Origin: Adineta ricciae
Lineage: Eukaryota > Rotifera > Eurotatoria > Adinetida > Adinetidae
Direction of reading: 5' to 3'
Assembly (NCBI GenBank): GCA_905250025.1
Contig: CAJNOJ010000190.1
Coordinates: 62,001-126,000 of the forward strand
DNA: 64,000 bases
Made by a program: the position numbers and the translations under genes. Under the pieces are notes generated by a model. It saw only the letters and a program-made list of their open reading frames with translations, was not told where the DNA came from and searched no databases. Positions 3,742-62,910 of this stretch are shown one piece after another; the first letter of the stretch is position 1, and each line of letters begins with the position of its first letter.

Positions 3742-4883
3742 CTCACTGACAAAAAGTTTCATTGAATATCTTTCGAACACGTCCTTGGTCAAAGGTAACT
3801 TAGATAAGCATATAAAGATAATATTATCTCATCGTTTTCTTTCATTCCCTAGATTTCACTTGTTTTCTTTCATTGTCTATCAGTTGTTATACTCAAAAAA
3901 AAAAGAAAGAAAGCCTGCTGAAATTGTTCTTCCCGTTTTTTGTACTCAAAGAAAACAACACCATTTTCCATCACATCTATTTTCTTTTCTCACACATGAT
4001 ATAGTCAAGGTTATTTTCTTCTCAACTCTCATGGAAGAAAAGTGACTCACAATACTTCGTAGTAGAAAAAATCTGTTCGTAGACTATTTGACACTGATAG
4101 AGAATGCATAGACGTTAACAGCGTTTTTGTCAGTGAACTTATTGATTCCTATGTGTTTTTTTCAGTTTTATAGAGTAAATGCAAGCGAGAGCGATGACAA
4201 TCATACACAAAAACCTCATCGTATTTTCAATTCAGCTGTAGATCCCCAATGTATTCGCTTCTAAGTACAAGAACAGCGTGCAATCATCACTTCAGAATTC
4301 GAATAATGCTTCAAAGGATGGAAATGAACGTAATAAGATACGCTCATAGATGATGATATGTGTTCCAATATTTGGTGTACTAGTAGCTTGAGTACAGACG
4401 ATCCTTAGAGAATAACTTCATCGCCGTCTGAACCATAAATAGTTTGCATGTTCAATATTTATCTAATTTAAGTGGAAGTAAACTAATGAGTACGACATGC
4501 TTCTCAACATTAGGATATATCTTAACGAGCTGCTAACAGACCACTTGAAAACTAAATAACATGTCTCATTTTGTTGATGGAGATTATCTAAATATGATTA
4601 GGAGTCGCATTGAATAACAACAAGAAGTTCAAGTAGAGTGACAGTAATCATGGTGCCTCATGCGCAATTTATTAAAATATGTATATGTCAGTTATAATGG
4701 TATTACACAACGTTCGAGATGCGAAAATTATCGATTCCAATTTCATCCTAGATTCCGCACAATTGTTTATTGATTAACGATGCGTGACTGCTGTCAAGAA
4801 AGAAGATTTGGCTTTGATTTGTCATCACTGTATTGTCGAGAGTTTTCCACATCGGATTCAAACTTGATTTGTTTTCATGCACC
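3742..4883. other. Intergenic, no gene seen
   Basis: Upstream flank of the SLC22 gene plus spacer. Only short ORFs with no recognisable domain, for example 3785-4045. Confidence 0.5.
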
Positions 4884-5178
4884 GAAGTAAATAGCAAACG
4901 ATGTCCATATACCCAAGATAAACAGCAATGTGTAATGGCAACCAACCATCGGCATTGTACATCCAGATATCACACTCACCGACTTCCACAAACACTTTCA
5001 GCACATCGAGACGATTGTGGAGACAACAGAAATGAACGAGAGATTGTCCATGATATGTGAGATAGTTGAGATTGAGTGTAGGTAGTTGATGAAGAAGTTT
5101 GTGAATGTCGTAGATGTTGGCGTTAGACTGAATGAAATGAAAGAGTCGAGAGGTGAACTGATGATGATCAAGGATCAT
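4858..5178 (-). CDS. Small ankyrin-repeat protein, left copy
   Basis: ATG-initiated ORF of 106 residues encoding about two ankyrin units (GQSLVHFCCLHNRLDVLKVF and DGWLPLHIAVYLGYMDIVCY). The first 98 residues are identical to the ORF at 9482-9808 on the other strand. The last eight residues are unique, and the reading frame stops soon after the shared segment ends. It could be a short gene, the first exon of a longer one, or a duplicated gene fragment. The sequence around the end of the shared block (TTACTTCGGTGCATG) could act as a weak donor, but I found no convincing downstream exon. Confidence 0.45.
   Translation of the reverse strand: MILDHHQFTSRLFHFIQSNANIYDIHKLLHQLPTLNLNYLTYHGQSLVHFCCLHNRLDVLKVFVEVGECDIWMYNADGWLPLHIAVYLGYMDIVCYLLRCMKTNQV
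4884..5178 (-). repeat. Left arm of a 295-bp inverted repeat
   Basis: Reverse complement of 9482-9776. Read side by side the two arms look identical over all 295 bases, starting exactly at the ATG and ending at TTTACTTC. Flanks on both sides are different. Confidence 0.85.
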
Positions 5179-5447
5179 TTTTGAAACAAACGAAATGAAA
5201 TGGAAGAGAAAGAAAAGTGTGGTATGTTTATATAGAGGAAAGAGTGAACGAATGAAATGATTTTGTAGGTGAGAACGAGAGAAAATGAGATCAAAATGAA
5301 AGCAGCTGGTATGTCTAATGACTAGTAGAGCACATTTGTTATGGTGTAATCCATTCTATTCATCTGCGCTGAAATGAATATGCATATTCAACTAATTATA
5401 TATATGTATATTTGCTACAAATGAATCAACAAAACAAAATATCACAA
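5179..5447. other. Intergenic spacer
   Basis: Presumptive upstream region of the left ankyrin ORF, with a TATATAA-like box near 5229-5236 when read on the minus strand, and the 3' flank of the next gene. Confidence 0.4.
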
Positions 5448-22675: not shown

Positions 22676-24068
22676 TTATTCATTAATTTTGACGAGTAGA
22701 TTTCGTCTATTCGAACTATTTTCGGATAATGACACATGATAGCGTGGAGATTCTGATTGCTGAAAGAGATGACGTCGAAATACTGAGGACGAGAGTGCAT
22801 ATATGAAAGGATTCACACAGGCTGCTGTTTTCGTGAGCAAACCAAACATGGTTGTTATGTGCGCATTTATCAAGTGATCAAACCCAACTTGAGATAAAAC
22901 GGTGAGTATCGCGTAAGGCGTCCAAGCCATACAATAAGTAGTACAGATCAATAATGCAGTACGAATGACACGAGCTTCGGTGTAAGAAATCACTCGAACT
23001 ATTTGATGGTCACTCGTTGACAAGGGGATCATTGAATAATTTCGAGACACTTCATCAAATAATGAATGATTGTTCATCATATCATATATCGTCGGGCGAA
23101 TATTAAGTTGTAATCGTAACTTTTGCTTTCGGTAAGTTCGACACAGGATGTGCTCATTACGCTTCGATAGTTGCAGCACGATATATGCATATGATACGAT
23201 AATGATTGCTAATGGGACCGAAAATCCAACAACTATCAATATCAACATAAATACTCGATTCCACACATCTTTCGACACATAATCAAATGTACAACTCGTG
23301 CCAAATCCTTCAAACACAAATCGACTCCATCCAAAGAACGGTGCGATCATCAAGATCAGACCATACAGCCAGCAGCATGCAATACATTCTATCAATATCA
23401 AACACGAACATCATAGGGCTCAGCGCCAATTAAAAATACATACTTAATGTCACAGTTGTAGTTAATTTCAATGAACTGAATGGTTGGACGACAGCGACGA
23501 GTCGAGTGAGAGCAATTGCAGCCATTGTCGCAATCGATGTGAAAGCGCAAAGACCACCGGAGAATGCATAGAAGTCACAACCTATGTATAGAAAGATAAT
23601 AAGTCACACTAAAACGTTATCCGCAACAATTTCAACTTTTCGAATTAAAGAACTTTAAGATACATGCATAATGATAATATAGTATATTCACTATCAGAAG
23701 TACTCATTTACCTATCTTTCCAAATGGCCATTGCTTATTAAACGATGCGATGGCATGCAGAATATTATTTGTCAGAAGTAGTCCCAGATCAGCCACAGCA
23801 AGATTGATCAGGAGGAAATTTCTCGGTTGTCGTAAGCTGGAACTTCTTTTCAGACAAAAATTCACAAGAGATTATTTCATATTAGAAAACAAAATGTTTA
23901 ATATGTGTTTTACCTGAGAAAGACATAGATAACTAAAGCATTCGATATTGCTCCGCATATCAAACATAAAGAAGCGAATATACCTGTAGCATTATGCCAC
24001 GTTGCTGACACGGATGCAGACATATTCAAATAGGAAAATAGATCGTTATTGAGGAATACTTGTGTCAT
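22676..24068 (-). CDS. Opsin A (retinal-binding GPCR)
   Basis: Light-sensing seven-TM receptor. Exons: 24068-23914, 23845-23712, 23581-23444, 23388-22676, giving 379 residues. The start MTQVFLNNDLFS precedes TM1. The retinal Schiff-base lysine lies in TM7 (LLTKTAACVNPFIYALSS), six residues before the N of NPxxY, the rhodopsin K296 spacing. The disulfide cysteines are present (GCDFY and GTSC). The position equivalent to rhodopsin E113 is Tyr, and the E181 position is Glu (FEGFGTSC), as in melanopsin-like and other non-vertebrate-visual opsins. The ERY motif reads TRL (IALTRLVAV), so the acidic residue is absent. The HPK tripeptide after NPxxY typical of Gq opsins is missing. The middle of the gene (23189-23581) is nearly identical to opsin B at 38746-39138, while the rest has diverged. 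Confidence 0.9.
23189..23581 (-). repeat. 393-bp near-identical tract shared with opsin B
   Basis: Pairs in inverted orientation with 38746-39138. By eye about 11 mismatches in 393 bases, seven of them in the intron. It starts exactly at the exon 3 acceptor and ends in TM5. Exon 2 just upstream is only about 77 percent identical, and the third cytoplasmic loop downstream does not align. Confidence 0.85.
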
Positions 24069-33518: not shown

Positions 33519-34457
33519 TCAGATAGCAGAAGAAAGTAGTTGTCCTTGATAGGTAACTCCGCTATCACTAACAAAACAATAACTAAGCGTATCACCGGTT
33601 AATTGGACTTCGTAAGGTGTTCTATTCGATGTTGACGAAGCGTCTGTTGCATTGATAACTGAATTTGCAGGTGTAGCAGAAACAATTGGTTTTGATGGCA
33701 ATACTAACGGATGATTATCAACACTGGTTTCTTTGAGGGTGTGTAATGATGTTATTTCTCTGAAGGGTAATGCTTGATTTAAATTCAAACGATAATTTGT
33801 CGTTATTAACGATGATGATCTTTGCAACGGACGATGAGATGTAGTTGGTCGTGATTTTTGTTTCGATGTTGCTGTTGGTATGGCAGGCATCGATGCTGTG
33901 TCTGTCGTTGACGCTCCAAGTGATAAGTTCGACATTGATTGGAGTGAATACGATGGTGTTTTGTTCGAATTCAATGTTATTGCTGTATCGACACTTTCTG
34001 TGCCATCTAATTCCTGTTGTTCTTGTTTACGACGTAGACGAGCTAAGGATTGTCGTCGAAGATAGGCGAGAAAATGCCCATATTGGAGATGCGGACGCGG
34101 CGGTGCCGATGAATTCAATGTAGGAAATTGTTGGGGAAGGGGTAATGGATTTGAATTTGGGTTGGGTGTTTGCGTTGATGATGTTCGATGAGAATTACCA
34201 GATGCATTAACAACGTATAAATAACGGGTATCTCGAGGATATTGTTGATGGTTAGAATAATAGGATGTTGATGAACGTGGGAGTAGTGTTGGGTAGATGA
34301 TCGAAGTTTTTGGTATTTGTGAGGCAACTGAAGGATGCGAAGGTGTTGTACGTGATTTCGGATGTGAATAATTGGTGGGAGGTAATTTTAGACGAACATC
34401 ATTTGCTTTTGGAAAAGATATGGTTATTTGTTTTGTTGACTTGTGATCTGCAGACAT
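33519..34457 (-). CDS. Orphan Ser/Pro/Thr-rich protein
   Basis: Intronless frame of 312 residues from the ATG at 34457 (MSADHKSTKQITISF); the frame runs 14 codons further upstream, but only from a TTG. Composition is Ser/Thr/Pro/Asn-rich and mostly disordered. The one structured-looking segment is YGHFLAYLRRQSLARLRRKQ, an amphipathic basic helix, and the C-terminus (VQLTGDTLSYCFVSDSGVTY) looks like a small beta hairpin. No family recognised. The gene is convergent with the RASL12-like gene, with only 46 bp between stop codons, so their 3'UTRs must overlap or be very short. Confidence 0.6.
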   Translation of the reverse strand: MSADHKSTKQITISFPKANDVRLKLPPTNYSHPKSRTTPSHPSVASQIPKTSIIYPTLLPRSSTSYYSNHQQYPRDTRYLYVVNASGNSHRTSSTQTPNPNSNPLPLPQQFPTLNSSAPPRPHLQYGHFLAYLRRQSLARLRRKQEQQELDGTESVDTAITLNSNKTPSYSLQSMSNLSLGASTTDTASMPAIPTATSKQKSRPTTSHRPLQRSSSLITTNYRLNLNQALPFREITSLHTLKETSVDNHPLVLPSKPIVSATPANSVINATDASSTSNRTPYEVQLTGDTLSYCFVSDSGVTYQGQLLSSAI

Positions 34458-35274: not shown

Positions 35275-36000
35275 ATGATCGAACGAAAGATTCTGTTCGG
35301 TCTCGGTCTTGTTCTTCTATGGACATGTTACGATCTCACGCAGATATATTTGACTCCATCTACGAGCGAATCGAAATCAACTGAATCTACTTCATCAACT
35401 TTCGACAGTCATTCCGATGCATCATACGAACAATCTTCAAATATTCCAGCACCTAAAATAAAGAACCACGGTGTGCAAACCATCAAGTTTCTCTTTTGCC
35501 ATAGCTGAGGGTAACTATACATGCGAATATCTCAGATTCTCAATTGGAAATCTCTCTAATCTTCTTATAGGTACCGAAATGTGTTTGAACAGTTTGCACA
35601 ACTTGTTCGAACACATTACCCTGGCATGGAAGTGGAGGGCGAAAACTACCCACCACCGCCAACCAAAGCATTGATTGCTCGTGTATTGTCTATGGTGAAG
35701 ATGGCTTTACTCGTTTGTCTTCTTTTCAGTCAAAATCCTTTTGCACTTCTAAATATTCCTACACCAGCAGTCTATTCATGGGCATTACAAAATAAGATGT
35801 ATGCGTGTTTGATGGTCTTTTTCTTCTCAAACTCAATTGAATCATCTCTGATTTCCACGGGCGCATTTGAAATATCTGTTAATGATGTTCCACTATGGTC
35901 CAAACTTCAGACAGGTCGCTTACCATCGGCCAATGAATTCATTCAAATGTTACAAACATTTGCAACTAATTCGAACTTGAATACTGCTGTTCCTTATTAA
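35275..36000 (+). CDS. SELENOT: Selenoprotein T (Sec encoded by TGA at 35506-35508)
   Basis: ER-membrane thioredoxin-like oxidoreductase. Exons 35275-35510 and 35571-36000 give 221 residues if the in-frame TGA at codon 78 is read as selenocysteine. The redox motif is then C-H-S-U followed by GYRNVFEQF, matching the family's CxxU-GYRRVFEEY. Downstream landmarks are VEGENYPPPP, KMYACLMVFFFSNSIE, STGAFEISVNDVPLWSKL and LPSANEFIQML, all in the positions seen in SelT. The start MIERKILFGLGLVLLWTCYD gives an N-terminal signal/anchor; a second hydrophobic segment lies after the redox motif (MVKMALLVCLLF). Read conventionally the gene would be cut in two, just before the splice site. A SECIS-like hairpin lies about 100 bases after the stop. 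Confidence 0.95.
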
Positions 36001-36100
36001 TTTCTAGTCTTGCAAAGAAAAACCCCAAAGTTTCATTTCTTACTTGGTGTTTTCGATGTTTCAATTTGAAGTAATCTTTCTTATACATCACTTGATTGAT

Positions 36101-36176
36101 GATCAGATTTACTTATGACGATGCAAGTTGAAAGTGATAACATATTACAGACTTTTCATCTGACCTTCTGTTGATC
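36101..36176 (+). promoter_or_regulatory. Putative SECIS element of selenoprotein T
   Basis: 3'UTR hairpin with the kink-turn quartet ATGA at 36115-36118 and TGA at 36161-36163. The lower stem pairs GATCA (36101-36105) with TGATC (36172-36176). The upper helix pairs GATG/CATC and AAGT/ACTT around a small internal loop. An unpaired AAA begins at 36131, 12 bases after ATGA. A six-pair mini-helix GTGATA/TATTAC with an ACA loop caps it, as in form 2 SECIS elements. Folding was done by eye. Confidence 0.8.
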
Positions 36177-38085
36177 ATTAATTGAGGCAAGTGAATAAGA
36201 AACGATTAGTTAGCAAATTCGAAGTATCGAAGTCGATTGTGACAAGTGAAACTTTGGTCGAAACTTTTTTGTTGTTGTTCTCTTTGTTTTTACAGTATTT
36301 TTTCTACTATTGAATATCTTCGTTTGTCATGAATAAACCTTCTTTATGTACCACAACAAATTTCGTGAAAGATGCATCGCGTCAGCAAAATCATCTTGTA
36401 TTCTAGTGAAGATGGATTACAAGACTGCGTCATGTCTTGTATTGAATGATATTAGTGTAATTTGAGAAGATTGTAGACGTACATTTCTTCGAACGAGTGT
36501 CTCCGCGTGTCATATTACAAAGCTATCGTGATAGACAAGTGTTTTTACATGGATTTAGTTTGAGGTTGAGTGCTAAACAAAAGTGCATTTCCATACTGAA
36601 GACAATGTAGAACGAGAGTGTGATAAACGTTTGAATCATAATGTGATAAATAGGGAAAAGAAGAATCCTTAGCGAGAAACAATATTCTATAAAACTCCGA
36701 CAAGGTAATGGATTGTGAGTAGTGTAATGATTTCTGTATTTATTGTTCGTTTTTCAAAGTAGAAATCTTTACAACAGACATCTCATGATAAACAAGTCTA
36801 GTGTTCTCGGTATAAGAAGTTGGTACGTGTATTGCCTACGCTCTATCAGTGCATCTTGGATGTTAATGAATAATTATTTAGGTCACAACACGTTTACGTA
36901 GGAAACTCAACACATCATATGTTGTCATTCTTCAGTGCATAGATTTGTATATAAAATATGACTAGTGTGCCGTTAAAACCTATAATTTAGTAAGAAGTGA
37001 CAGTGTACTCTCGATATATTCATTCAGGCCACTACAATCTGTAGAAAAGCGTATATCCTTCTAGAAAAAATGCAGTTAGACGTTGTATTTTCAATTTGTT
37101 TTCACTATAGGTTGACACTGTGAAAAGAACAACCATGTACTCAGATAGCCTGTGGAGTTCTTTGTGAGCTTATATATTAAAATGTTCAAATGAACGTTTC
37201 TTTTTTCTTAACAAATTCCAGAACATTAAAAATACCTACATCGTTAAAGATTTATCTTCTGATATTAAAAATAAATTACACAGCTATAGTTCTGTAATTA
37301 ATTCGTAATATAGCATAGAAAATTTTATAAAACGAATCATAATTAAATCTTTAGAAAATCTGATGTTACGATTCTCTGCATTATAGTGTAAGTTATGACA
37401 GAGAGAAGAATACAATTTTCTATTTCTATGCATCAGTTTGTACAAAAATTCATAGTTCAGTTGAGTTCATGACTATTTTCTTCCTCGTGTCAATCTATAG
37501 CGACAATGTATAGAATACACAGAGTCTAAGTATTTTTTTCTCCGATAGATCTAATTACTTTTCCTTCAACAACAATTTACAGTGAGAAAAGGTTCAAACC
37601 ATCGAGTACAACGTTCCTTTCCTCTCAAAAACATACGTAGCGTCGTATTAGATCAGCTGTCTGCTGTTAATTATTATAGACCCAAGCGAATTTCCCTATG
37701 CATAATAACACTGTCAAGTTTAGTAATAGAAAATTCGATAACATCATTCCAATATAGTCTTTCACTTTCAACCAGATCACAGTGTGAGCAATTGTGACAA
37801 CGCACAGACATTTTTCGTTGATAGTTTTGTCATCTTCACGCGAAGGCAACATTTCTTTGAGCGATTTCACTTAGAAACATTCATTTTTCTGTGAAACCAT
37901 GCATAAATACGTCAATTTGTCTAAGGATGGGTTGATAGGAGTATCTTGTTTGATAACATGCAGACATTTTACTTTATTTGATCGCTTTATTATTGTTCGT
38001 GTCTTATAAAAGATAATAGGAAAACTTCATTCTATCTTTTCTCAGAGTGATAGAGTACAAAAGGTACAAGTTAACCAGCAAAACA
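36177..38085. other. Intergenic, no gene seen
   Basis: 1.9 kb of A/T-rich sequence upstream of opsin B; no coding or repeat structure recognised. Confidence 0.45.
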
Positions 38086-39669
38086 ATGGTATCGAATGAT
38101 AATCCATTGGCACCTTTGAATATGAACGCATCAGTATCAGATATATGGTATTATGGAACAGGCCTATTTTCTCTTCTATGCTTATTGTGTGGATCGCTAT
38201 CAAATGGTTTAGTTCTCTACGTATTCATCAGGTAAAACATATTCAGTACTTGCCGTTCTCTTTTATGAAACTGAGCGCATAATTTTGTTTGAATAGAAAT
38301 TCCAGTCTACGACAACCGAGAAATTTATTTCTTATTAATCTTGCAGTTACCGACCTTGGATTACTCCTGACAAGTAATTTGTTACATACAATTGCATCAT
38401 TTAATAAGCAATGGCCATTCGGAAAAATAGGTAATTATTTTCCCTTAAATAAATGTTAAATTATCGAGGTACTAGTAGCTTCTGCCTAGAGCGCAGCCTC
38501 CAGTTGCCCTATTTTTGCTTTGTGACCTGTTAAATTGCTTTTGATTTGATCTATGTCACATTTCACTCAGCACCGTTCAAAGAGATGATATCTCTTGAGA
38601 TAGATATTTGGTCTTCAGATAAGCGTACTTCCTCCTAAGAGTGGGACTTTCCTGACGACAGTTGAAAATATTTTCTGTTGAACCAGCCAATTGTAGATTC
38701 AAACATTGAAGTGAACTTCCTAGCATGTTATGAATCAATTCCTAGGTTGTGACTTCTATGCATTCTCCGGTGGTCTTTGCGCTTTCACATCGATTGCGAC
38801 AATGGCTGCAATTGCTCTCACTCGACTCGTCGCTGTCCTCCGACCATTCAGTTCATTGAAATTAACTACAACTGTGACATTAAGTATGTATTTTTAATTC
38901 GCATTGAGCCTCCTGATGTTCGTGTTCGATATTGATAGAATGTATTGCATGCTGCTGGCTGTATGGTCTGATCTTGATGATCGCACCGTTCTTTGGATGG
39001 AGTCGATTCGTGTTTGAAGGATTTGGCACGAGTTGTACATTTGATTATGTGTCGAAAGATGTGTGGAATCGAGTATTTATGTTGATATTGATAGTTGTTG
39101 GATTTTCGGTCCCATTAGCAATCATTATTGTATCATATTCGTTTATTCTGGTAAAATTAACGAATCGTGGTCGTCATCTCGTATACAAAAGTTATTCATG
39201 TACGGGATTTCAAAGGAAACCGAAACTAGGTAGATTGTATTTTTTTGTTCCAATTAGCTCAACTCATAATGAACCATTTTCCAATGAAGGAAAAGTCATT
39301 TTCACATTTAATGAAAGTAATCAAACAAAACGAGACATACGTCGTACTGAAATCCGAGTTACTCGCACTGCACTAGTAATTTGTGGTATCTATGTAATGT
39401 CGTGGACTCCTTATGCCTTAATGACTATTGCAGCTCAATTTGGTTTGGATCGTTTGGTGAATGTCTATTCAGCATCATTAATTACTTTATCGACAAAAAT
39501 ATCAGCCTGTATAAATCCTTTCATATACGCACTTTCATCTTCGGCGTTCCGCCGACATCTGGGTTTTTATTCGAATCTTCTTTTTGCGTGTCGAAAACGC
39601 TCCAACTCATTGTCAACATCGACTTTGAGTATACATCGGAAAACTGGAACCCCTTCTACAATTCGATGA
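38086..39669 (+). CDS. Opsin B (retinal-binding GPCR)
   Basis: Paralogue of opsin A on the opposite strand. Exons: 38086-38231, 38297-38430, 38746-38883, 38939-39669, giving 382 residues; intron positions and phases match opsin A exactly. The N-terminus has a glycosylatable NMNAS. The Schiff-base lysine is in LSTKISACINPFIYALSS, with NPxxY six residues on. As in A, the E113 position is Tyr, E181 is Glu, and the ERY motif is TRL. The third cytoplasmic loop is long and different from A (GFQRKPKLGRL), as is the Ser/Thr-rich tail (KRSNSLSTSTLS). The different cytoplasmic loops suggest the two may couple to different partners (inference). Intron 2 is the longest at 315 bp. Confidence 0.9.
38746..39138 (+). 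repeat. 393-bp near-identical tract shared with opsin A
   Basis: Inverted partner of 23189-23581. Spans exon 3, the whole 55-bp intron 3 and the first 200 bases of exon 4 (TM3 to TM5). The flanks diverge abruptly on both sides. Confidence 0.85.
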
Positions 39670-62837: not shown

Positions 62838-62910
62838 GCCCGTGTGGCTCAGTGGCTAGAGCACTGGTCTAGTAAACCAGGGGTCGACAGTTCAATTCTG
62901 TCCTCGGGCA
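62838..62910 (+). tRNA. tRNA-Thr (anticodon AGT)
   Basis: 73 bases fold into a standard cloverleaf: acceptor stem GCCCGTG/CTCGGGC with one T-T mismatch, D stem GCTC/GAGC, anticodon stem CTGGT/ACCAG with loop CTAGTAA (anticodon AGT at 62871-62873), five-base variable loop, T stem GACAG/CTGTC with loop TTCAATT, and discriminator A. No intron; CCA not encoded, as in eukaryotes. Confidence 0.95.

Follow-up and report, generated by a model that had tools for sequence, protein, structure and literature searches.

Does the TGA that interrupts a gene for selenoprotein T (SelT) in Adineta ricciae end the protein, or is it read as selenocysteine (Sec)? The gene lies in bases 62001–126000 of contig C190, a stretch of 64,000 bases that we call the window. 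Its GC content is ∼35% (0.32 to 0.39 in 2-kb steps); the published value for Adineta ricciae is 35.6% (PMC5916493). The genome to which it belongs was searched as 130.46 Mb in 1033 contigs, each cited here as C with a number. We conclude that the gene is very probably functional, its UGA codon 78 most likely being decoded as Sec by means of a SECIS in the 3′ UTR. The features that lead to this conclusion are observed directly: the gene structure, the TGA in a homologous copy, the purifying selection after the TGA, the hairpin, and the genes of the Sec machinery.

The SelT gene and its in-frame TGA

The gene has two exons on the forward strand (window 35275–36000) and, with U at the TGA of codon 78, encodes 221 amino acids. 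The features of the locus are as follows.

35275..35510, + strand: SelT exon 1, with the start ATG at 35275, an N-terminal hydrophobic segment and the CHSU motif (from sequence)
35506..35508, + strand: codon 78, an in-frame TGA taken as selenocysteine (the C10 copy also has TGA, the C48 copy TGT)
35511..35570, + strand: GT-AG intron of 60 bp (at the same place in the C10 and C48 copies)
35571..36000, + strand: SelT exon 2, the remainder of the Rdx (thioredoxin-like) domain, with stop TAA (translation, domain match)
36092..36185, + strand: SECIS-type hairpin including helix I (geometry, shuffles, Rfam)
36115..36163, + strand: SECIS core of form 2, with ATGA, helix II, AAA, apical mini-helix and TGA (geometry)
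36332..36337, + strand: AATAAA, a likely poly(A) signal (read from sequence)

An earlier note on this DNA had described a SelT gene with an in-frame TGA, a CxxU redox site coded TGC CAT AGC TGA, and a fold that continues in frame across the next intron. All three points were borne out. The four codons are at 35497–35508, in the context CHSU-GYR; exon 1 ends two bases past the TGA, and the domain runs on through the intron. Entered in family searches with C for U, the protein matched TIGR02174 (SelT/SelW/SelH) with 89 bits (cut-off 34.2) and PF10262 (Rdx) with 59.8 bits (cut-off 22.6), and both matched stretches include residue 78. The Rdx model of 74 positions is stretched over SelT residues 69–206, so that a central insertion is present; a central hydrophobic insertion is what separates SelT from the rest of Rdx. 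The N-terminal hydrophobic segment is also visible. Identity to human SELENOT is 39.5% over 190 columns. Both proteins have CxxU followed by GYR, as well as the GENY, YAC, and STGAFE blocks, but the N-terminal Ser/Thr-rich stretch is longer in the window protein than in the human one. Among PDB chains, a sequence search with E up to 1 brought up no SelT but three other proteins: C17orf37, a hypothetical protein, and one related to selenoprotein W.

An animal equipped with the Sec machinery is expected to have a SelT that contains Sec. SelT has been reported in all platyhelminths examined and in almost all sequenced animals (PMC3828610), and a table of metazoan selenoproteins gives one SelT in each of its six columns, the word rotifer being absent from that paper (PMC3473315). 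By title, the open-licence literature holds no selenoproteome study of rotifers or bdelloids; two Brachionus papers mention selenoproteins, and PMC8614756 is on GPx. Standard annotation would probably break SelT, SelW, GPx, and SPS2 at the TGA, and the SelT described here is an ordinary gene that is easily mis-annotated.

Selenocysteine machinery and other selenoprotein genes

The established eukaryotic route of Sec decoding runs through SBP2, eEFSec, and Sec-tRNA(Sec). The earlier note had proposed a search for these components and had named a lack of tRNA-Sec among three results that together would refute its reading. That lack is contradicted, since tRNA-Sec with a TCA anticodon occurs at two loci, on C165 and C275 (two of the six listed matches to RF01852 pass the cut-off; the other four are tRNA-Ser). 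With the human protein as tblastn query, eEFSec was found on C76 in six aligned pieces, and the best PDB match of its C-terminal piece (192 aa) is to the eEFSec chains 5izk and 7zjw (E 5.4e-39). The family model TIGR00475 for eEFSec gave 28 matches in the genome, none over the cut-off; of the 16 with loci, some looked by eye like other GTPases of translation and were set aside. The SBP2 RNA-binding domain has its sole match on C95 (49% identical, E 1.3e-30). SepSecS, on C11, reaches 490.9 bits against a cut-off of 224.85 (two of the three PF05889 matches). A candidate for PSTK is an ORF on C130, the best family of which is TIGR03575 (E 1.7e-11; 44 bits, with the cut-off at 382.35); on C19 and C30, matches to PSTK/KTI12 looked KTI12-like by eye and were set aside. 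Finally, SPS2 is present at two loci, on C29 (about 82203–83074, a copy supported by PDB also) and on C10 (about 805676–806626), both with an in-frame TGA in the context KG-TGA-GCKVP.

Other genes carry a TGA of the same kind. SelW of CGAU type on C61 and C152 has TGA at the Sec site together with SECIS-type cores, and the C61 element scores 28.5 bits with Rfam SECIS_1. GPx on C82 and C120 (two of nine GPx matches) has TGA at the Sec site and no other stop, with SECIS_1 matches of 26.3 bits. A SelW-like gene on C90 (match 39227–39451) reads CGGU, likewise with TGA at the Sec site; the 1 kb downstream of it holds only a doubtful CC-type core ∼750 bases away, and Rfam gave no SECIS_1 within 4600–5300 of the extracted locus. 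In the 3′ UTRs of both SPS2 copies a form-2-like hairpin can be made out by eye; in helix II, an A-T pair of one copy is G-C in the other, and the C10 copy has GGA in place of the usual TGA. Core scans at two settings gave nothing convincing for these SPS2 hairpins, and Rfam gave no SECIS_1 for either copy. In SelT, SelW, SPS2, and GPx, the TGA falls at the site where Sec is known.

Because the machinery genes (tRNA-Sec, eEFSec, SBP2, SepSecS, and SPS2) occur in the genome together with TGA-bearing SPS2, SelW, and GPx, the organism appears, from its sequence, to keep Sec insertion, in agreement with the earlier note. This indicates that the Sec pathway has been kept in an apparent bdelloid rotifer. 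For the window gene we infer expression, with an mRNA that would carry UGA at codon 78. SBP2 would bind the SECIS in its 3′ UTR, and eEFSec and Sec-tRNA(Sec), acting with SBP2, would insert Sec at that codon. The product would be a thioredoxin-like oxidoreductase of ER type, presumably located there and active through its CxxU redox center.

The SECIS-type hairpin in the 3′ UTR

The earlier note had also placed a form-2 SECIS-like hairpin ∼100 bases past the stop. The geometry stands: the core begins 114 nt past the stop, with ATGA at 36115–36118, AAA at 36131–36133, and TGA at 36161–36163, enclosed by helix I arms at 36092–36106 and 36171–36185. The hairpin shares with eukaryotic SECIS elements of form 2 the AUGA, AAA, and UGA motifs, the 12 nt between AUGA and AAA, the apical mini-helix, the long helix I, and the location in the 3′ UTR. 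The likely poly(A) signal lies at 36332..36337, so the SECIS would stay in the SelT mRNA.

The element is weak. Unlike a typical SECIS_1, its helix II is interrupted, since a 1×2 internal loop replaces a C-G pair found in C10, and the core has −5.9 kcal/mol. It scores 14.3 bits (E 2.7) with Rfam SECIS_1 (RF00031), for which the gathering score is 35 bits, and an unrelated miRNA model stands ahead of it at 20.6 bits; for the longer stretch 35900–36400, SECIS was absent from the matches with E up to 5. By comparison, the C10 SelT hairpin has a helix II of ten pairs, a core of −10.1 kcal/mol, and SECIS_1 as its best Rfam family (21.2 bits, E 0.047). The lack of a SECIS above threshold was another of the three results named in the earlier note, and this holds in part: the window hairpin is below the gathering score, but the C10 copy scores higher, and that copy and the SelW (C61) and GPx elements are under the gathering score too. 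Because it falls below that score, we call the hairpin SECIS-type on its geometry and context. Since helix II is interrupted, Sec insertion may be less efficient in the window copy than in that of C10.

A strict core scan, with a cut of −6.0, missed the window hairpin and found that of C10. At −5.8, a cut set post hoc just under the window hairpin's own value and lenient to it, there are eight cores in the window, four per strand, and the SelT core is the best by the sum of core and helix I. None of 2000 dinucleotide shuffles of 36001–36360 reached that sum, and 21 of 2000 contained any core at the post hoc cut. In free folding of 36080–36185, another upper fold is preferred over the SECIS fold (z −1.38; a fold as good is reached by 17 of 200 shuffles). 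Nearest-neighbor models give no credit for the non-Watson-Crick quartet. MAFFT produced no useful alignment of the diverse SECIS-type elements.

The top SECIS_1 match returned by the genome search belongs to a different setting, a LINE-type 3′ UTR at C201:15675–15737 (− strand; 36.4 bits, E 6.3e-4). In that search 133 of 2992 candidates were scored, and the C201 hairpin alone is over the gathering score among the five matches listed; the list is incomplete, for it lacks the SelW element, which reaches 28.5 bits when scored alone. The ATGA lies 45 bases past the TAA that closes a LINE-type ORF; this ORF is uninterrupted and, by likeness, would encode an endonuclease and a reverse transcriptase. 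Because this ORF contains no in-frame TGA, the hairpin appears to be a SECIS-like element with no Sec codon to serve, perhaps a hairpin for recognition by the reverse transcriptase that imitates a SECIS, or perhaps a captured SECIS. It is kept in two of the three copies that reach through it. The C99 copy (78% identical) has ATGA, AAA, TGA, and the fold, with one G-C pair of helix II replaced by A-T and one pair broken; in the C72 copy, TGG stands in place of the 3′ TGA and the fold is lost. The C694 and C559 matches start within the hairpin, that on C694 at an N. By title, the open-licence literature on SECIS, retrotransposons, and selenoproteins includes no paper on a LINE SECIS-like hairpin, and the retrotransposon passages of PMC9599142 concern frameshifting.

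Three SelT copies and the alternatives to Sec decoding

Six matched stretches in the genome reduce to three SelT candidates, namely the window gene and copies on C10 and C48. Over 9.9 kb, C10 and the window run collinear, with a DNA identity of 91.8%; the SelT of C10 keeps the TGA, and its protein is 94.1% identical to that of the window. The C48 copy (C48:451222–451923, − strand) has 60.8% amino acid identity to window SelT and reads CQGC, with TGT, hence Cys, at the Sec site. In a 7-kb stretch it is adjoined by neighbors of window type, with protein-level matches at window 33522–34418 (34.8% identity) and at about 20.6–22.3 kb. Its 3′ UTR is short, with AATAAA read ∼80 bases past the stop, and a scan of 903 bases downstream gave no credible SECIS, only one poor core ∼540 bases away inside the neighboring gene. 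Because of the shared neighbors, the Cys, and the short 3′ UTR without a credible SECIS, we read the C48 gene as an ohnologue that lost Sec, in which case the ancestor would have had it. The presence of a Cys copy in the genome qualifies the reading of the earlier note without refuting it.

Substitutions bear on whether the region beyond the TGA is translated. Between C190 and C10, the 143 codons after the TGA differ by 4 non-synonymous and 8 synonymous changes (dN/dS 0.14, dS 0.09), and the 77 codons before it by 9.5 and 8.5 (dN/dS 0.31, dS 0.18). Against C48, dS was saturated in three of four comparisons, and only C10 versus C48 after the TGA gave a value, a dN/dS of 0.096 (dS 2.08). These counts are small but fit translation beyond the TGA under purifying selection. 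The dS of the close pair, and the very high or saturated dS to C48, resemble the mean KS published for Adineta ricciae, 0.135 for homologs and 1.267 for ohnologs (PMC5916493).

Might the window copy nevertheless be decaying? The absence of the C10 C-G pair from helix II, with a core of −5.9 instead of −10.1 kcal/mol, and the SECIS_1 score of 14.3 rather than 21.2 bits would suit a gene that keeps its UGA but has a SECIS too weakened for useful Sec insertion, yields mostly a 77-aa fragment, and leaves the function to C10 and C48. We consider this unlikely, as the protein after the TGA is conserved, with 4 non-synonymous differences in 143 codons relative to C10, and the ATGA, AAA, TGA, and mini-helix of the hairpin are intact.

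Far less probable is that translation really ends at the TGA, with exon 2 being either a gene of its own or a relic. The frame does end at the TGA under the standard code, but exon 2 carries on the same domain in frame, an intron occurs there in all three copies, the C48 copy reads through with Cys, and dN/dS after the TGA is low. Two separate genes are rejected, given a single domain in frame across a shared intron. We give equally little credence to the idea that some amino acid other than Sec is inserted at the TGA, whether through general reassignment or leaky readthrough: tRNA-Sec with a TCA anticodon, eEFSec, SBP2, SepSecS, and SPS2 are present, the TGA of SelT, SelW, SPS2, and GPx lies at a known Sec site, and the long retrotransposon ORF on C201 is free of internal TGA. 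No point was found in favor of general reassignment, which we reject. Decoding of codon 78 as Sec thus remains the preferred reading.

A more speculative proposal, which we regard as possible but doubtful, is that the three copies represent stages of a Sec-to-Cys transition within one genome: C10 with Sec and a well-paired SECIS, the window with Sec and a weakened SECIS, and C48 with Cys and no SECIS, a series that the ancient tetraploidy of an asexual animal would have allowed. If so, Sec-insertion efficiency could be compared among copies in a single individual. With Sec and Cys forms and two versions of the SECIS side by side, the genome provides a natural setting in which to ask why selenium is retained or given up in animal SelT. 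Copies converted from Sec to Cys usually lose the SECIS. As in vertebrate conversions after duplication, of which 12 events are reported (PMC3316567), one gene copy has Cys for Sec, and the C48 copy is without a credible SECIS. Unlike in vertebrates, the rotifer Sec and Cys forms occupy apparent ohnologue blocks within a single genome, and SECIS strength differs between the Sec copies of the window and C10.

Three further observations concern the surroundings of the gene. The repeat TGTGGG, which we take to be the bdelloid telomere repeat, is matched as often by its reversed control because that control is the same repeat shifted, and it is therefore of no use here as a marker. SelT is flanked by an inverted duplicated stretch whose parts are ∼15 kb apart, at window 23189–23584 and about 38.7–39.7 kb; one piece of C10 matches both, with 90.4% identity over 396 bp at the first. 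A tRNA-Thr (AGT) gene lies at window 62838–62910.
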